Part shown: positions 19,685 through 58,132 of the stretch, piece by piece | Numbering within the stretch: position 1 is the first letter of the stretch | Layout of the letters: each line of letters starts with the position of its first letter | DNA from: Sulfurihydrogenibium sp. YO3AOP1 | GTDB taxonomy: Bacteria > Aquificota > Aquificia > Aquificales > Hydrogenothermaceae | Direction: 5' to 3' | DNA: 64,000 nt | Assembly: GCF_000020325.1 (NCBI RefSeq) | Contig: NC_010730.1 | Location: forward strand, 1,013,501 to 1,077,500 | Notes under the pieces: model-generated | Databases searched by the model: none | Seen by the model: only the letters and a program-made list of their open reading frames with translations | Told to the model about the DNA's origin: nothing | Made by a program: the position numbers and the translations under genes

Positions 19685-21709
19685 TTACACCATCCAATCA
19701 TAATCAAAATTTTCTGATATATCTAACATAATTATACTGTAAACAGGCAGCTTCTGTAAAAGCCGAGAATCTTTCAAGATTTCTATATAAAACTCAAACT
19801 TTTTCTCGTTTAAAAGATTTAAAGGTATTTTAATTTCAATTATTTTTTCGCATGCAGCTTCAACGCCGTTTTCATCTGTATACTTTTCATTTGAAATCGG
19901 GATGGAAAATGAAATTTCTTTATCTGTGATGAAATTTAGTCTTAATATATCATTTTTTATCTGATTAACACTGCCATCAAATCTAAGATAAAAGTTTTCT
20001 TTATCATAGCCATAGTAAAGTTTATTTAATAAAATCTCTGTGTTCATAGATGATAAATCAAAGGTTAGGTCTATCTCTCCTGAAAACAACCATTCAAAAT
20101 AGTTTGTAATCTTTCCATCAATTGTCGGTGTGATGTAGTTTTTCGGCTTTTTTATAATAGGTTGTTTGAATGTTTGTTTTATAGGTTTGCTTAGCTTAGC
20201 CGGTGGCTTTTTACCAAGAACATCATAAACTTTCATTAGATTAGACCTAAATAAAAGGTCAAATTTGTCTGCGTAGATGGTAAAATGGTCATCTCCATAC
20301 CACCAAAACCAATCGCTCCCTTCTGCTATGTAGATATATTCTATTGCCTTTTTATATAAATCATTTTCTTTTTCTGATTCTAAAAAGTTTCTTGTTTCTG
20401 ATAGGTACTCCCATGCTGTGTTTTTCTCCGGGTGTCCTACCCATGTTGTAAAATTTCCGTATATCCAACTACCGGCTTTTATTGATTCTAAATTTTCAAT
20501 TTCTACATTTTTCTCTAAGACTTCTGAAAATGTAATACATTCTATCCACTTTTGGTGGGAAATTTCAAAGTACAATCTATTGAAGAAATCTTTACCATTG
20601 TTTTTATAAAACTCCCAAGCATTTTCTCCATCAAGAATCACACTTACAACTTGACAGTGCTGAGAAGAATTATAGATTGACCTTAAATGAGATATAAAAT
20701 CATCCACCGCATTTTTTTCGTTCATGTTTTGATATCTAAATCCTATGCTATCACTTAAATATTTATCTCTAAAAAAAATGTAAATATCTTTATACTTGTA
20801 AATTTTATACTTATCTCTTTTTCCTGCCACGTTGTAAAGCACATCTTCATCTGTTGCTGTCCATTTTATTTTATGCTCTATAAATAAATCTAATGTTTGA
20901 TTTGATAAAGAACCTTCGGCCGGCCAAAGTCCATTTGGTTTTTTATCAAAAATACTTTGATACTCATCTAAAGCTGCGTTGAGGTGATAAACTGCATCTT
21001 CTTTAAAGTTTGCTGTAATCTTAGGTAGAGAGATGTCAGGTTTAGATTCTTTGGCTGATTCTATGTTTAAAAGTAAAGGTAAGATTGGATGGTAATACGG
21101 CGTTGTGGTAATCTCAATCTTTCCTTCGCTTTCGAGTTTTTTGTAATATGGAATGATTTCTTTTAAAAAGTCTAATAGAACATTTGTAAGCTTTTCTTTT
21201 TCTGCTTGAGTAAAATTTTTTCCTTTTTCTAAAAGAGTTTTTATATAATGATTATTTTCTCTAAGATAATTACCTGTCCAAGATAGCAAAAAAAGAACTT
21301 GCAAATCTAAAAAATCTTGATTGGTTAAGTTTTGAGTAGTCATATACTTTTGATGAATCTGAAAGTATCTTGGAATTGGCTTTATCATAGTGGTAAGATT
21401 TGTATTGAAAAGTATTGTTAGAAGATAATCTTTTTCAGTATTAGAAATCTTATTTGCATCCTTCTTCAATAAGTTTAAGAATTTACAGCTTGAAGGATTT
21501 TCTGAATATATTTGAAGTTGTTTTATTAAAGAAGGAACTAAGTTAAACGTTGCTTTTATTTTTTTGTATCTTGAAACAAGCCATGGCATTTCGTAGTAGT
21601 CTTTTATTGCGTGTAAAAACACCCATGGCATTTCAAATTCTTGGGTAAATGGGTCTATATACCAAGGTTGGTGCATATGCCATAAAAAACAGAGGTATAG
21701 TTTTTTCAT
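19685..21709 (-). CDS. GH57 glycoside hydrolase (alpha-amylase/amylopullulanase type)
   Basis: The N-terminal LCFLWHMHQPWY is the GH57 entry motif. The probable nucleophile lies in LWPAEGS and the acid/base in VILDGENAWE; WFWWYGDDH near residue 470 is another conserved segment. A beta-rich C-terminal extension of about 170 residues follows. It lacks a signal peptide, so it should act on intracellular alpha-glucan. The start ATG overlaps the stop of the upstream Rpn gene by four bases. Substrate (amylase versus branching or debranching) cannot be decided from the sequence. Confidence 0.85.
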   Translation of the reverse strand: MKKLYLCFLWHMHQPWYIDPFTQEFEMPWVFLHAIKDYYEMPWLVSRYKKIKATFNLVPSLIKQLQIYSENPSSCKFLNLLKKDANKISNTEKDYLLTILFNTNLTTMIKPIPRYFQIHQKYMTTQNLTNQDFLDLQVLFLLSWTGNYLRENNHYIKTLLEKGKNFTQAEKEKLTNVLLDFLKEIIPYYKKLESEGKIEITTTPYYHPILPLLLNIESAKESKPDISLPKITANFKEDAVYHLNAALDEYQSIFDKKPNGLWPAEGSLSNQTLDLFIEHKIKWTATDEDVLYNVAGKRDKYKIYKYKDIYIFFRDKYLSDSIGFRYQNMNEKNAVDDFISHLRSIYNSSQHCQVVSVILDGENAWEFYKNNGKDFFNRLYFEISHQKWIECITFSEVLEKNVEIENLESIKAGSWIYGNFTTWVGHPEKNTAWEYLSETRNFLESEKENDLYKKAIEYIYIAEGSDWFWWYGDDHFTIYADKFDLLFRSNLMKVYDVLGKKPPAKLSKPIKQTFKQPIIKKPKNYITPTIDGKITNYFEWLFSGEIDLTFDLSSMNTEILLNKLYYGYDKENFYLRFDGSVNQIKNDILRLNFITDKEISFSIPISNEKYTDENGVEAACEKIIEIKIPLNLLNEKKFEFYIEILKDSRLLQKLPVYSIIMLDISENFDYDWMV

Positions 21710-21939
21710 TTAATATTTTCTAACTCCTCAATACTTTTAGCTAAAGCTACTTTTGTAAAAATTTTGTCTAACTCTTCTATCTCTTTACACTGTTTTATTA
21801 TTTTTTCTAAACTCTCTGGAATAACTCCAAATTTTAGTTGAGTTAATTTTATTAAATCTTCCATTTTAGCTTCTAATTTACCTTCCAATTTTCCTTCTAA
21901 TTTTCCTTCCATTTTCCATTTTTCTGTTAAAGTCATCAT
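21706..21939 (-). CDS. Possible intragenic small protein, C-terminal part of the Rpn gene
   Basis: GGAGGTGA at 21947-21954 precedes two consecutive in-frame ATG codons by seven bases, giving a 77-residue product with the GKLE repeats and the helical tail. E. coli Rpn genes are known to make such a short C-terminal protein that inhibits the full-length toxin. Caution: the Gly-Gly-Asp codons would by themselves create this ribosome-site-like string. Expression is inferred only. Confidence 0.45.
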   Translation of the reverse strand: MMTLTEKWKMEGKLEGKLEGKLEAKMEDLIKLTQLKFGVIPESLEKIIKQCKEIEELDKIFTKVALAKSIEELENIK

Positions 21940-22629
21940 TTTTTCATCACCTCCGGCTACTTCTTTTAAAACTTCTTCTACTTTTTCAATATCCTTTTTT
22001 ACTAATACAATGTAGTCAAAAGCTAAATACAGACAATCTGATTTATATTCAATCATTAACTTAAAAATCGGTTTAAAGTTTTGGATATCCTTAAAGATAT
22101 GCTTCATAACAAGTAATGCTGAAATTGTGCATACATCTTGATATAGTCTGTTTTTCAAATCTTCATCTGATATTTGATTTAAATCTATAAGCAGGTAGTT
22201 TAACTTCAAGCTGTATTTTTCTAAATTTTTACTGCTTAAAACAGGCAGACTTGTAGATATATTCCATTTTCTTTCTCCGTGATAGAAAACTATGTTAATG
22301 ATTGGTGGGTAGTATTGTTTTTCTTTTGCTGTTTCTTGCCATATTACTGCGTTGTAGTGCAATAATTGAGATGGTAAGTCATAATCTATGTAAGATTTAT
22401 GCTCAAAAATCAGTCTAATAAATGCTTCTTGGTCTTTAACTTTACATGTGTATAACAAATCAAGCATAAACTTTTTAGATTTTTTAGAAAATTTTTCTGT
22501 GTTTACTATGTTAAGCTGCTGTACTTCTTCTGCTAAATCTGGAGCAAATATATCTAAAACAGTTTTCACGCTTTTTGGATTGGAAAATATTTGCTTAAAA
22601 AACCAATCATGTGGCTGGATATTTTCCAT
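21706..22629 (-). CDS. Rpn-family PD-(D/E)XK nuclease (transposase_31/PDDEXK_2-like)
   Basis: The N-terminal QPHDWFFKQIFSNP and the catalytic pattern Asp57 (MLDLLY), Glu77-x-Lys79 (FEHKS) mark the recombination-promoting nuclease family. The C-terminus has a short repeated GKLE motif (residues about 241-255) and a helical tail. About half of its residues match the paralogue at 56559-57497. It sits in the middle of a tight operon: three bases after the nucleotidyltransferase gene and overlapping the GH57 gene by ATGA. An internal GGAGGTGA and an in-frame Met-Met at codon 231 could start a short second product. Family members have been linked to DNA cleavage and phage defence. Confidence 0.88.
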   Translation of the reverse strand: MENIQPHDWFFKQIFSNPKSVKTVLDIFAPDLAEEVQQLNIVNTEKFSKKSKKFMLDLLYTCKVKDQEAFIRLIFEHKSYIDYDLPSQLLHYNAVIWQETAKEKQYYPPIINIVFYHGERKWNISTSLPVLSSKNLEKYSLKLNYLLIDLNQISDEDLKNRLYQDVCTISALLVMKHIFKDIQNFKPIFKLMIEYKSDCLYLAFDYIVLVKKDIEKVEEVLKEVAGGDEKMMTLTEKWKMEGKLEGKLEGKLEAKMEDLIKLTQLKFGVIPESLEKIIKQCKEIEELDKIFTKVALAKSIEELENIK

Positions 22630-22632
22630 TTT

Positions 22633-25119
22633 CTATTCCATCCATTTGTTTATCTTGTCGATATACTCATTTAAAACAGCTTTTGCTTTCTCTTCTTTGT
22701 CAGAATTGACATATAGATGTAAACTATCTGCATACTGGTCTGGAAGCATTAATATCCAAGTTTTCTTATCTATAAAGATTTTAACACCATCAACAAAAGA
22801 TGCATCTTTTCCTATCGCTTCTTCTGTGAATTTTCTCATCATCTTTCCTTTTAGATTAATAGGACAAGATACAACTTTATGCTCAAAATAATGGTTTGGA
22901 ATAATTTTCTGTATATCTGATATTTTTTGTTTTGTCTTGCTTAACATCTCAAGAATTTTAATAGATGCAAACATACCATCAAAGCTATAAGACATTTCTG
23001 TAAATGTATAATTTCCTTCAAGATTTCCAAAGAAGTAATAATCTTTTAAAAAGTTAGATTTTAGACCGATAGTTTTACCCCTTTCTACGATTATATTTTC
23101 AAACATCTCATCCATAACTTCAGGAACGTAGACAGGTAAGTAAACTTTAACTTGTCTATTGACTGTTTTATCTATCAAATAGAGTATTATCAAAATAGCT
23201 GTTTCATTGTCTAAAATTTCACCATTATCTGATATGATTACTACTCTTTGACCGTTTGGATACATTACAAATCCTATATCAGCAGATAATACATTGACCA
23301 TTTTCGAGATTTCTTCAGCGGATTTTTTATGAAGAGTTGAGATTTGAGACAATTTTTTCTCATCAAAATAAGCATTTAGAATAATGTTTTCTATTCCGAT
23401 TGTATTTACTATATCTGGATATATAATGGAAGTAGAACCATTTAGCAGGTCTGTAATGATTTTAAATTTATGACTTTTAATGCTCTCTTGGTCTATCAAT
23501 GATAAAAATTTTTCTTTGTAGGATTTTAATGGCAGTGGTTCATCTTTGATTTCTCCTATTTCATTATAATTTACTCTTCTAAAACTTTCTCTAAAGAATA
23601 TTCTTTCTATGAATTTTTCTGTATTTGTGTCTATCAAAAGCCCGTCGTTGTCGTAGAATAAAATCTCTGTGATTGTTGGATTTTCTGGAGATTGTCTGAA
23701 ATGTACTCCACCGATCGCATCGGTATTTGATAGTAAAAATCTCATAACTGGAAGTGGCATAAGTTTTAAATCTATAACGTTTAAACCTGAACCAAGCAGT
23801 CCACCAAGGAAAGACCTTTTTAACATTCTTGAAGCCCTATGATAATCTCTTGACATTAAAATTGTCTTTCCAAGTGGTAATATAGACCCAAAGCTTGCAG
23901 CAAGCTTGGCTGCCATTTCATTAGAAAGCTCAATATTGGTTCTTCCGGAGACTTTACCACCTTCAAACAATGAAGATTTCCATTTATCACCCCAAATAAG
24001 ATTGCTACTAATAATAGCGCCTTCTTCAATGAGTTTGTTTGGCCAAATAATAACATCTTTCTCAAATGCTACATTATCTTTTATCTCACAACCTTCTGCT
24101 ATGATGACTCCATGCTCGGCTCTTACATTGTTTTCTATAATGTTATTATTACAGATAACAGAGTTTAAAAATTTGCAGTTACTGCCAATTTTAACATCCC
24201 ACCATAAAACACTGTCTTTAATGTATGTATTTTTTCCTATATGACAGTTTTTGCCAACGACTACATTTTCAAGTATGATATTTTCTTCTAATTTTACATT
24301 TTCATCTAATACAACTTTACCAACGATTTCTAAACTTGCCGGTAAATCTTTTGTTTTTGTATATAAAACACCGGATGGATAAACGAGTTTTTCGCCTTCA
24401 AAATCTATCTTTACCTTTTCTTTTAAAATATCTTTATTTACTTCTCTATAACTCTCCGGATTTCCAACATCTCTCCAATAGCCTTTCGCATTATATCCGT
24501 AAAGTGTGATTCCTTCTTTCATAAGCTTAGGAAATAGGTCTTTACTAAAATCAAACGGAATATTATCCGGAATATAATCTAATATCTCTGGTTCAATTAC
24601 ATAAATACCGGTGTTTATCGTGTCGCTAAAAACCTCTCCCCATCCTGGCTTTTCTAAAAATCTAAGAATTTTTCCATCTTTATCTGTAATTACTACTCCA
24701 AACTGCAGCGGGTCTTCAACAGATGTTAAAGTGATTGTTAATTTAGAGTTAACAGCATCATGAAATCCGATTATTTCTTTAAAATCAAAATCTGTAACTA
24801 AATCCCCACTTACTACGATAAACCTTTCATCAAGATACTTTTGGGCTTTTTTTACAGCCCCAGCTGTTCCGTAATCATCATCCGGCAGCACATAGTTTAT
24901 TTTAATTCCAAAGTCAGAGCCATCTTTAAAGTAGTTCTGGATAACTTCTGGCTTAAAGTATAATAAGACAACGATTTCAGTGATGCCAACAGATTTGAGT
25001 TTTTTGATAATATGCTCCATCATTGGTTTGTTAAGGATTGGAAGCATCGGTTTTGGAATGCTGTTTGTTAATGGTTGTATTCTTGTACCAAATCCACCTG
25101 CCATAACAACTGCTTTCAT
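22633..25119 (-). CDS. Fused sugar-nucleotidyltransferase / phosphomannomutase-like protein
   Basis: Residues 1-230 are a nucleotidyltransferase of the mannose-1-phosphate guanylyltransferase/glucose-1-phosphate type (MAGGFGTRIQPLT, SGDLVTDF, EKPGWGEVF, NTGIY). Residues 250-375 are left-handed beta-helix hexapeptides. Residues about 390-828 resemble a phosphohexomutase, but the usual phosphoserine loop (TASHNP) reads FRQSPENP at 474-481, so the mutase activity is doubtful. It heads the minus-strand operon that continues with Rpn, two GH57 enzymes and kdsB. It likely supplies an activated hexose for alpha-glucan or surface polysaccharide. The exact substrate is not determinable here. Confidence 0.85.
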   Translation of the reverse strand: MKAVVMAGGFGTRIQPLTNSIPKPMLPILNKPMMEHIIKKLKSVGITEIVVLLYFKPEVIQNYFKDGSDFGIKINYVLPDDDYGTAGAVKKAQKYLDERFIVVSGDLVTDFDFKEIIGFHDAVNSKLTITLTSVEDPLQFGVVITDKDGKILRFLEKPGWGEVFSDTINTGIYVIEPEILDYIPDNIPFDFSKDLFPKLMKEGITLYGYNAKGYWRDVGNPESYREVNKDILKEKVKIDFEGEKLVYPSGVLYTKTKDLPASLEIVGKVVLDENVKLEENIILENVVVGKNCHIGKNTYIKDSVLWWDVKIGSNCKFLNSVICNNNIIENNVRAEHGVIIAEGCEIKDNVAFEKDVIIWPNKLIEEGAIISSNLIWGDKWKSSLFEGGKVSGRTNIELSNEMAAKLAASFGSILPLGKTILMSRDYHRASRMLKRSFLGGLLGSGLNVIDLKLMPLPVMRFLLSNTDAIGGVHFRQSPENPTITEILFYDNDGLLIDTNTEKFIERIFFRESFRRVNYNEIGEIKDEPLPLKSYKEKFLSLIDQESIKSHKFKIITDLLNGSTSIIYPDIVNTIGIENIILNAYFDEKKLSQISTLHKKSAEEISKMVNVLSADIGFVMYPNGQRVVIISDNGEILDNETAILIILYLIDKTVNRQVKVYLPVYVPEVMDEMFENIIVERGKTIGLKSNFLKDYYFFGNLEGNYTFTEMSYSFDGMFASIKILEMLSKTKQKISDIQKIIPNHYFEHKVVSCPINLKGKMMRKFTEEAIGKDASFVDGVKIFIDKKTWILMLPDQYADSLHLYVNSDKEEKAKAVLNEYIDKINKWME

Positions 25120-54805: not shown

Positions 54806-56389
54806 ATGGAAAAGAAAGTTTTAATATACGATACAACGCTGCGAGATGGGACCCAAGCTGAAGGTGTTAGTGTTTCTGTTGAAGATAAATTAAGAATAGC
54901 AGAAAAACTTGCAGATTTTGGTGTTCATTATATAGAAGGCGGATGGCCAGGCTCTAATCCAAAAGATATGGCATTTTTTAAAGAGGCAAAGAAGCTAAAT
55001 CTTAAAAACACAAAGCTAACAGCATTTGGTTCTACAAGAAGAACAAACTTAAAGGTCGAAGATGATCCGCAGATTCAAGACCTGATAAAGGCAGAAACAC
55101 CTGCTATTACAATTTTTGGAAAATCATGGGATCTACATGTTACTGAAGCACTTAAAACAACCTTAGAAAAAAATCTTGAAATGATTTACGATTCTATTGT
55201 CTATTTAAAAAAATACACTAACGAAGTAATATTTGATGCTGAACACTTTTTTGATGGATTTAAAGAAAATCCTGAGTATGCAATTAAAGTTTTAAAAACA
55301 GCACAAGAAGCAGGAGCAGATTATTTAATACTTTGTGATACAAACGGTGGAAGCCTTCCAACAGATATAGAAAAAGCTTTTAAAGTCGTAAAGGATGCCG
55401 GAATCACTGCAAAACTTGGAATTCATGCTCATAATGACTCAGACACAGCTGTTTGGAACTCTATAGTTGCAGTCTTAAATGGAGCTATTCAAATTCATGG
55501 AACTATAAACGGTATTGGTGAAAGATGCGGAAATGCAAACCTTTGTTCTATCATACCAAACCTTATGTTAAAACTTGGATATGAGGCAATACCAAGAGAA
55601 AATCTTAGAAGATTAAAAGAAATTTCAAACTTTGTTTCTGATATTGTAAACATGCCTGTCCCTAAGAATATGCCGTATGTAGGAGATAGTGCGTTTGCTC
55701 ACAAAGGCGGTGTCCATGCATCAGCTGTTCTTAAAAATCCAAGAAGTTATGAGCATATTTTACCGGAAGAAGTTGGAAACAGAAGAAAAGTTCTTGTTTC
55801 AGACTTGGCAGGTAAGAGCAACATTATTTATAAAGCAAGAGAAATAGGTATAGAAATAGATGAAAAAGATGAAAGATTAGCTTCTCTTGTTCAAGAAATA
55901 AAAGAGCTTGAGAATCAAGGATATCATTTTGAGGCAGCAGAAGCATCCTTAGAATTACTTATAAGAAAACATCTTGGAACGCTACCAAAGTATTTCGACC
56001 TTGATGCTTATAGAGTTTTAATAGCACGCAGATATACAGACAAAACACCTATATCCGAAGCTACTGTAAGAATAAAAATAGAAAATCATTATGAGCATAC
56101 GGCATCTCTTGGACATGGACCGGTTAACGCACTTGATAATGCTTTAAAAAAAGCTTTAATATCTAAGTATCCATCTTTAGCAGAGGTTGAGCTTATAGAC
56201 TACAAAGTTAGGATCGTGAATGAAAGTGGTGGAACAGCAGCAAAAATAAGAGTGTTGATCGAAAGTAGAGATAAAACAAAAAAATGGGGTACTGTTGGAG
56301 TTTCGGATAACATTATAGAAGCATCTTGGCAGGCTGTTGTAGATAGCTTTATTTATAAATTGGTCAGGGATAACATACAACCAGCATGA
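54806..56389 (+). CDS. cimA: (R)-citramalate synthase
   Basis: HMGL-like domain enzyme condensing pyruvate and acetyl-CoA for isoleucine synthesis. [36 protein letters not shown] and [16 protein letters not shown] contain the metal and catalytic residues. The C-terminal 140 residues are the LeuA-type allosteric domain (feedback by isoleucine in the family). 527 residues, as usual for the CimA type (TIGR00977 group). It starts one base after hisF. A 170-base gap separates it from the second Rpn gene. Confidence 0.95.
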
Positions 56390-56558
56390 AAAAGTAAAAT
56401 GAGAGATTTTTAGTTTTCGTGATGAGATTTGTTTTAATTTTTTCATTTCTAAAGGTATTAAAATTGGAGGCTTAGGCAAAACATATAAGGCATTGGGCTT
56501 GTTAATTTTTGTGTAAAAGAATGAAAAACTCAAAACGACAAACAGGATAGGAGTTAGA

Positions 56559-57497
56559 GTGAAAAACAAAGAAAGTATACAACCTCACAATTGGTTTTTT
56601 AAGCAAGTATTCTCAAACTCAAAAAACGTCCAAGACTTTCTTAGTATATTCTTATCTGACCTATCTCAAAAAATACAGCTAAGCTCCTTAGAGTTAGTGC
56701 CATCAGAAAAATTCTCAAACAATCAAAAAAAACATTTTCTTGACCTGCTTTACAAATGTAAACTAAACGACAAAGAAGCATATATAAGATTAATATTTGA
56801 ACATAAATCATACGTAGACAAAAAACTACCACTTCAACTTATGCAGTACAACGCCGTTATTTGGGAAGAAGCATTAAAAGAAAAAGATTACTATCCACCA
56901 ATCATAAACATAGTCTTTTATCATGGACAGGCAAAATGGAACTTTCCGACAACCATTCCAGATATAGAAGATGAAGAGTTAGACAAATACATCCAAAAAC
57001 TCAACTATATCCTCATAGACCTAAACGAAATAGAAGATGAAAATCTAAAAAGGTACTTAAAGAAAAATGTTGATTTAATCATGGAAATGTTGATAATGAA
57101 GCACATTCACGATAGGTTAGAAAGGATAAAAACTTTACTCAAAGATGTAATAGATGAATGTTCAGAAGATTGTTTTGTTATAATTCTTAATTATCTTGTA
57201 TTAGTAAAAAAAGATTATGAAAAAGTCAAAGAAGTTTTTAAAGAGATAATAGGAGGTGAAGAAAAAATGATGTTATTCACTGATAAATTAAAAATGGAAG
57301 GAAAAATGGAAGGAAAGATAGAAATTTTAAGAGAGAATATAATAGATTTGATAGATGTAAAGTTTGGAGTAGTTGATAAATCTATAACAGAAAAAGTTAA
57401 TCAAATAGATAATATAGAAACTCTAAAGCAAATTTTAAGAATAGTTGGAAAAAGTCAAAGCTTGGATGAAGTAGGAGAAAAGCTAAATAGTTTATAA
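56559..57497 (+). CDS. Rpn-family PD-(D/E)XK nuclease, second copy
   Basis: The paralogue of the gene at 21706-22629, with the same QPHNWFFKQVFSN start and catalytic Asp62, Glu81-x-Lys83 (FEHKS). The C-terminal GKMEGKIE repeat is shorter than in the other copy. It starts with GTG after GGAGTTAGA and stands alone between cimA and an RNA methyltransferase gene. In-frame AGGAGGTGA and Met-Met at codons 237-238 would allow a 76-residue second product. Known family members cut DNA, raise recombination and act against phage. Confidence 0.88.
   Translation: MKNKESIQPHNWFFKQVFSNSKNVQDFLSIFLSDLSQKIQLSSLELVPSEKFSNNQKKHFLDLLYKCKLNDKEAYIRLIFEHKSYVDKKLPLQLMQYNAVIWEEALKEKDYYPPIINIVFYHGQAKWNFPTTIPDIEDEELDKYIQKLNYILIDLNEIEDENLKRYLKKNVDLIMEMLIMKHIHDRLERIKTLLKDVIDECSEDCFVIILNYLVLVKKDYEKVKEVFKEIIGGEEKMMLFTDKLKMEGKMEGKIEILRENIIDLIDVKFGVVDKSITEKVNQIDNIETLKQILRIVGKSQSLDEVGEKLNSL
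57267..57497 (+). CDS. Possible intragenic small protein, C-terminal part of the second Rpn gene
   Basis: AGGAGGTGA at 57251-57259 lies seven bases before two consecutive in-frame ATG codons, giving a 76-residue helical product. It has the same layout as in the other Rpn gene. It would correspond to the short antitoxin-like form known from E. coli rpn genes. The codons for Gly-Gly-Glu themselves create the string, so coincidence is possible. Confidence 0.48.
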   Translation: MMLFTDKLKMEGKMEGKIEILRENIIDLIDVKFGVVDKSITEKVNQIDNIETLKQILRIVGKSQSLDEVGEKLNSL

Positions 57498-57559
57498 ATG
57501 ATTAGAATTGAAAAGTCAAAAATAGCTCAAAGCAATATGAAAAATAAATGGAGGACAAA

Positions 57560-58132
57560 TTGACAAACGATAATGTTTACATTTCTGTTGTTCATTATCC
57601 GGCAAAGAATAAAGAAGGAAGATGGATATGTACATCTTTTACAACATTAGACTTTCATGATGTAGCAAGACCCGCAAGAACATATGAACTCCAAGCATAT
57701 TACATAGTCCAACCATTAGAAGCTCAGCAGTTTATCATCAAAGAACAGCTTAAATACTGGACAGAAGGATTTGGCTCTGAATTTAATCCAAAAAGGTCTA
57801 TGGCTGGTAGTATGGTAAGAGTTGTCTCATCTATTACACAGATGCTTGAAGAAATAAAAAAAGAAAAAGGAAAATATCCAAAGTTAATAGCTACATCAGC
57901 AAAAAAATATCCACAAACTGTAAGTTATGGTGAGATGAGAGAAATTTTAAAAAATAAAGATGAAATATTTTTAATACTTCTTGGCACAGGTTGGGGAATG
58001 CCTGAGGAGTTAGTTTCAAGCTGTGATTATGTATTAGAACCTATTTTAGGTCCGGGAGATTATAATCATCTTTCTGTAAGAAACGCCGCCGCAATAATAT
58101 TAGATAGATTATTTTCAATAAATAGATGCTAA
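57560..58132 (+). CDS. SPOUT-like RNA methyltransferase (Methyltrn_RNA_4 type)
   Basis: Matches the SPOUT domain that is stand-alone or fused to TrmD in some thermophiles: VYISVVHYPAKNKEG and TTLDFHDVARPARTY near the start, then the knot region LILLGTGWGMPEELV, ILGPGDYNHLSVRNAAAIILDRL. Probably methylates tRNA or rRNA using SAM; the target is unknown. The start was taken at TTG five bases after GGAGG; the ATG at 57548 overlaps that site. mraY follows nine bases after the stop. Confidence 0.78.
   Translation: MTNDNVYISVVHYPAKNKEGRWICTSFTTLDFHDVARPARTYELQAYYIVQPLEAQQFIIKEQLKYWTEGFGSEFNPKRSMAGSMVRVVSSITQMLEEIKKEKGKYPKLIATSAKKYPQTVSYGEMREILKNKDEIFLILLGTGWGMPEELVSSCDYVLEPILGPGDYNHLSVRNAAAIILDRLFSINRC

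Follow-up and report, generated by a model that had tools for sequence, protein, structure and literature searches.

A probable intragenic Rpn antitoxin with a constrained internal ribosome site in the thermophilic Aquificota host Sulfurihydrogenibium sp. YO3AOP1

In Escherichia coli, rpn genes give rise to a full-length protein and to a short protein started inside the same gene, and the short Rpn proteins were shown to block the growth inhibition, SOS induction, and DNA cleavage caused by their full-length partners (PMC10327210). The nuclease kept in check in this way is toxic and takes part in phage defence. The internal start of RpnA (M244) and its Shine-Dalgarno (SD) site (K240, E241) were proven by mutation, and the crystal structure of RpnA-S (7TH0) was described as a bundle of helices, the first of them long (PMC10327210). 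Four-residue repeats that start 8–20 residues past the internal Met, and whose number varies between close relatives, were reported as a further hallmark of the family (PMC10327210). In the full-length protein, toxicity, SOS induction, and recombination were all lost in the RpnA-D11A variant (PMC5350276). The PD-(D/E)XK residues required in RpnA are D11, D63, E82, and Q84.

We analyzed a stretch of 64,000 nucleotides from the genome of the hot-spring bacterium Sulfurihydrogenibium sp. YO3AOP1 (NC_010730.1, positions 1,013,501 to 1,077,500; hereafter, the window), which contains two rpn genes (Table 1). The product of the gene at 56559–57497, referred to below as copy 1, matched PF04754 (Transposase_31 nuclease domain) over residues 8–197 (E 4.7e-37, 128 bits versus a cut-off of 21) and the NCBIfam model TIGR01784 of the Rpn family (E 6e-18, 65.6 bits versus a cut-off of 52.1), and by its nuclease domain it belongs to Rpn (PF04754/TIGR01784/COG5464). 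An initial annotation had placed an SD sequence seven bases ahead of two in-frame ATG codons in this gene and had proposed that they start a C-terminal antitoxin-like protein of 76 residues, with the same layout in both copies. These coordinates were found to be correct. The sequence AGGAGGTGA at 57251–57259, the sole exact copy on both strands of the window, is separated by 7 nt from an ATG-ATG pair (57267/57270) that forms codons 237–238 of 312 and is in frame, and translation of 57267–57497 gave the announced 76 residues. The second copy (21706–22629) does share the layout, with GGAGGTGATGAAAAAATGATG at the position matching AGGAGGTGA of copy 1, and with GGAGGTGA (21954–21947) followed by ATG-ATG at 21939/21936. 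The neighbors of copy 1 are cimA, an RNA-methyltransferase-like ORF, and mraY, which do not make up a defence island, and PADLOC returned no good match. The second copy (window 21706–22633) lies inside an operon, 3 nt from the upstream gene and with an ATGA overlap with a downstream glycoside-hydrolase-like gene; given this tight spacing, shared transcription with sugar metabolism genes is probable.

Table 1. Coordinates of the rpn features in the window, with the evidence attached to each.
Feature	Position	Strand	Evidence or remark
rpn gene (copy 1), GTG start; full-length product RpnL (312 aa) with a PD-(D/E)XK nuclease domain at the N terminus and a helical tail at the C terminus	56559..57497	+	PF04754, TIGR01784, AlphaFold model
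Weak SD (AGGAG) of the full-length start	56549..56553	+	Duplex -6.8 kcal/mol vs -14.5 at the internal site
Codon 11, AAT (Asn), equivalent to RpnA Asp11	56589..56591	+	Asp in 99/103 aligned relatives
Nuclease core D62 ... E81-x-K83, equivalents of RpnA D63, E82, Q84	56742..56807	+	Invariant or nearly so in two alignments
Internal SD site AGGAGGTGA, encoded by Gly-Gly-Glu codons	57251..57259	+	
Predicted internal gene rpnS, 76 aa, ATG 57267 or 57270, frame shared with rpnL	57267..57497	+	Model with four helices
4-residue (12-nt) repeats MEGK-MEGK, first helix of the tail	57294..57317	+	Count varies between orthologues
Second rpn copy, 307 aa, Asp11 intact	21706..22629	-	
Internal SD GGAGGTGA of the second copy	21947..21954	-	
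Predicted internal rpnS of the second copy, 77 aa, ATG-ATG 21939/21936	21706..21939	-	
4-residue repeats MEGK-LEGK-LEGK-LEAK of the second copy	21865..21912	-	

Window ORFs of 200 aa or more contain 194 internal in-frame ATGs. When these were ranked by SD duplex energy, the first four places went to both pairs of rpn ATGs (−13.6 to −14.5 kcal/mol), followed at a distance by a value of −9.6, and both rpn internal sites also surpassed all 42 ORF starts (best start, −12.1 kcal/mol). The 3′ end of the host 16S rRNA carries the matching anti-SD sequence GGATCACCTCCTT. The host genome (1,838,442 bp) contains six rpn copies, one of which is frame-broken, and all six keep the SD-ATG site. The arrangement GGAGGTGA-N5-8-ATG was found eight times over both strands of this genome, six times as the internal starts of the rpn copies and twice at true gene starts, those of groEL and of an ORF of ~75 codons. 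The internal layout of copy 1 is thereby confirmed as real and far beyond chance. In five host copies, the duplex energies ranged from −13.8 to −14.5 kcal/mol for the RpnS start versus −1.0 to −7.9 kcal/mol for the RpnL start, and an excess of RpnS is therefore predicted. RNA accessibility at the internal site was unremarkable, ranking 41 of 117 at 37 °C, and the SD region is not unusually unstructured. A scan for internal promoters showed one promoter-like site (57070–57097) upstream of the internal start and a total of 9 sites versus 5.9 ± 2.3 in shuffles; as these counts are near the shuffle expectation, the scan speaks neither for nor against an internal promoter such as that of E. coli.

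The alignment proposed in the initial annotation as a check of synonymous constraint did not reveal free variation destroying the ribosome site. In 30 Aquificota sequences that carry the motif, some of them broken copies, the first Gly is encoded by GGA in 29 cases and by GGG in one, and the second by GGT in 28 and by GGG in two. These two codons ranked first and second for least synonymous variation among 41 columns of at least 4-fold degeneracy in the 30 genes, and the odds of two preset columns holding both top ranks by chance are 1 in 820. In the same genes, three or four codons (GGA, GGT, GGC, GGG) are used at the other conserved Gly columns. Distant subfamilies in Aquificota spell the signal otherwise, as GAGGAGGTTAGGCACATG (Glu-Glu-Val-Arg-His-Met) or as AAGAAGGAGCCTAATATG (Lys-Lys-Glu-Pro-Asn-Met).

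The signal was also followed across phyla in 72 representatives below 70% identity, drawn from the genome contig scan and the Aquificota set, of which 70 had a suitable ATG in the C-terminal part. Each was compared with 500 synonymous shuffles that kept the protein and the codon pool, the threshold for the best internal SD being ≤ −10 kcal/mol. Some kinship among the representatives remains, and with this reserve 36 of the 70 reached the threshold versus 17.3 ± 3.0 expected (maximum 27). When Aquificota were left out, 20 of 50 reached it versus 11.5 ± 2.4 in shuffles (maximum 19), again with residual kinship. No SD excess was detected at N-terminal ATGs of the same genes (2 of 65 versus 1.3 expected). 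The SD core was found in three reading frames (33 genes of GG type, 17 of KE/EE/RE type, and 4 of GS/GR type), which argues for selection acting on the nucleotides and not just on the protein. As a positive control, the SD scoring was applied to E. coli K-12, where it ranked first the M244 of RpnA as well as RpnB M244, RpnC M241/242 (GGESMMTLAQW), and RpnE M244. The E. coli RpnC sequence is visibly the counterpart of GGDEKMMTLTEKW in the host, and the internal start described here is positionally homologous to the one proven in E. coli.

The repeats of copy 1 start 9 residues past the first internal Met. The three orthologues found at this genomic site share about 93–95% identity, and the only length differences among them are 12-nt units in these repeats, with the SD and ATG ATG unchanged; the same 12-nt stepwise variation, with the SD and ATG ATG again unchanged, was observed between the second copy and its own orthologues. 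The genome contig scan returned a 94% identical relative in S. yellowstonense. When the interval between cimA and the ORF at 57548 was compared in seven Sulfurihydrogenibium genomes (window 54806–58132), rpn was present in three and the interval was empty in four, as expected of a gene gained or lost as a single unit. This clean presence or absence beside cimA would allow the gene ends to be mapped in order to study rpn mobility. More broadly, rpn genes were found in only 16 of 136 Aquificota genomes, and the viral contig scan returned only one distant relative.

The description of the short product as mostly helical was borne out by structure prediction. An AlphaFold model built from 30 sequences (pLDDT 85) shows a long helix (residues 233–269) bearing the repeats, together with three short helices. 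Foldseek searches with the single-sequence tail model and the alignment-based full-length model gave no significant match to any solved structure, including 7TH0, and no solved chain was matched in the sequence search.

The nuclease part of copy 1 departs from its relatives at one residue. Position 11 is Asp in 99 of the 103 aligned relatives that have a residue there, including both copy-1 orthologues, and in the second copy, whereas it is Asn in copy 1. Since Asp is retained by the orthologues of two sister species, the substitution arose recently in the lineage of this strain. The full-length nuclease of copy 1 may, from its sequence, be weak or dead, an Asp-to-Asn change being milder than Asp to Ala, and the toxicity of this protein is uncertain as a result. 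The substitution bears on activity and not on Rpn ancestry. In S. yellowstonense, an intact rpn paralogue (L036/L062) carries a D62N change at the position of RpnA D63 and keeps the SD and the tail.

Several incomplete copies were also observed. In six frame-broken copies (L041, L043, L044, L045, L006, and L038), all breaks fall in the nuclease part, and the internal start and the tail are still open. Such a pattern is expected of a toxin-antitoxin pair, but the evaluable Aquificota cases number about six, too small a set for the pattern to rise above chance, so a prior decay of the toxin is not established. A search for a free-standing rpnS gene yielded, as best candidate, a locus with 59% identity (L050; G000:C1:1401554-1401766) that was rejected as a relic, with a 1-nt deletion just past the ATG-ATG and an eroded SD, GGACTTGAT. 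This orphan remnant of an rpn tail (1494–1800 of L050, minus strand) adjoins an IS transposase and recR, and gives a natural picture of the decay of the signal once the nuclease is gone. Another locus (L054 1240–1692; G000:C1:988879-989070, plus strand) contains a frame of 150 codons that follows proA and is rich in KGL repeats. This frame has an Rpn-like tail and no nuclease domain, and may be a truncated relative or a tail gene on its own.

Taken together, the constrained SD, its retention in all six copies, the homology of the start with that of E. coli, and the variation of the repeats support the initial interpretation of a C-terminal antitoxin-like small protein. We consider the locus to be an RpnL/RpnS gene-within-gene toxin-antitoxin with a probability of roughly 0.8. 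Judged from the sequence, translation from the internal start is very probable, and an antitoxin function of this family member is, by homology, likely. A single mRNA would carry two starts in the same frame. The weak GTG start at 56559 would give the full-length PD-(D/E)XK nuclease RpnL, and the very strong one (SD 57251–57259, ATG 57267/57270) would give RpnS, a helical tail of 76 residues that is probably made in excess. Because the short proteins of E. coli block their own long ones, RpnS most likely binds the RpnL tail, with which it is identical, and silences RpnL, presumably through the long repeat-bearing helix, so that the nuclease would stay inactive until its release, for example by infection. 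The number of repeats may decide which RpnS fits which RpnL, and six copies could thus coexist. The sequence analysis shows the site, how nearly unique it is, its conservation as nucleotides, its position relative to the E. coli start, and the repeat variation; initiation, RpnS excess, inhibition of RpnL, release, and phage defence are inferred, and for copy 1 the D11N substitution casts doubt on the nuclease step.

Two other explanations concern the ribosome site itself. The SD-like sequence could be no more than the look of Gly-Gly-Glu codons in an A-rich genome, within a conserved protein and without any start, since GGEEKMM is conserved as protein in Aquificota and these genes encode Gly most often by GGA and GGT. 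This reading is very improbable, as the other conserved Gly columns vary freely and the SD pair does not, synonymous shuffling falls short of the observed count, the same SD recurs in other subfamilies with different residues and in other frames, and the motif is otherwise kept for true starts in the host genome. The SD-like element might instead pause ribosomes, or drive a frameshift at the A-run before the ATG pair that would yield a tail-less nuclease. An SD upstream of an A-rich stretch (GAAGAAAAAATG) does resemble SD-stimulated frameshift sites, but the A-run is not conserved, with GATAAGAAAGCT, GATAAGAAGGTT, and GATATT also occurring, and for that reason we reject pausing and frameshifting; the SD and ATG are, moreover, kept at start-site spacing across phyla, which leaves this explanation the least plausible of all.

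The function of the short protein can also be read differently. Granting that internal initiation is real, the product could be a structural or stoichiometric subunit, like Cas11d for Cas10d, or a regulator. Internally started supporting subunits exist (cited in PMC10327210), and the D11N change of copy 1 would fit a non-toxic complex. We nevertheless regard this as unlikely in view of the blocking of full-length proteins by the short ones in E. coli (PMC10327210) and of the homologous start site found here. Copy 1 might, finally, be a toxin disarmed by D11N that has fully kept its antitoxin start. Instead of forming a toxin-antitoxin pair, it would then inhibit related Rpn nucleases, whether those of the host or incoming ones, or stand by as a spare; this is conceivable, with a small chance of being right.

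The RpnL/RpnS toxin-antitoxin reading would extend the reach of the intragenic Rpn antitoxin to thermophilic Aquificota. The nucleotide selection on the internal ribosome site, seen across phyla and in three frames, is added comparative evidence that we did not find in the text of PMC10327210, and with it what experiments had shown in E. coli and C. difficile comes to be expected of the whole family. The antitoxin start appears to be among the strongest initiation sites of the host genome, the exact signal being otherwise present at groEL and one other gene, and this strength makes the idea of a toxin/antitoxin dosage directly testable.

Compared with known systems, the locus is well supported as a new case of a known one, an intragenic Rpn antitoxin in a thermophilic Aquificota host. 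It resembles the RpnL/RpnS pairs (E. coli RpnA-E and RpnP2, C. difficile Rpn; Zhong et al. 2023, PMC10327210) in its PF04754 domain, in an SD and ATG placed in frame within the gene at the homologous position, in a tail of similar size with variable-number four-residue repeats in the first helix, and in its acquisition as a single gene. The likeness to E. coli RpnC extends to the start itself (GGESMMTL versus GGEEKMML and GGDEKMMTL in host copies). It differs by its thermophilic Aquificota host, by a much stronger internal SD that is nearly exclusive to rpn in that genome, by the Met-Met start, by the six copies, and by N11 in copy 1. In the nuclease, D62, E81, and K83 match D63, E82, and Q84 of E. 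coli RpnA (Kingston et al. 2017, PMC5350276), except that K replaces Q84 and that, in copy 1 only, N replaces D11, the second copy having D. Cas10d/Cas11d of type I-D CRISPR (as cited in PMC10327210) likewise has an in-frame internal start and a C-terminal protein that joins the full-length one, but it belongs to an unrelated family, and its short product, Cas11d, is required for activity instead of inhibiting it.
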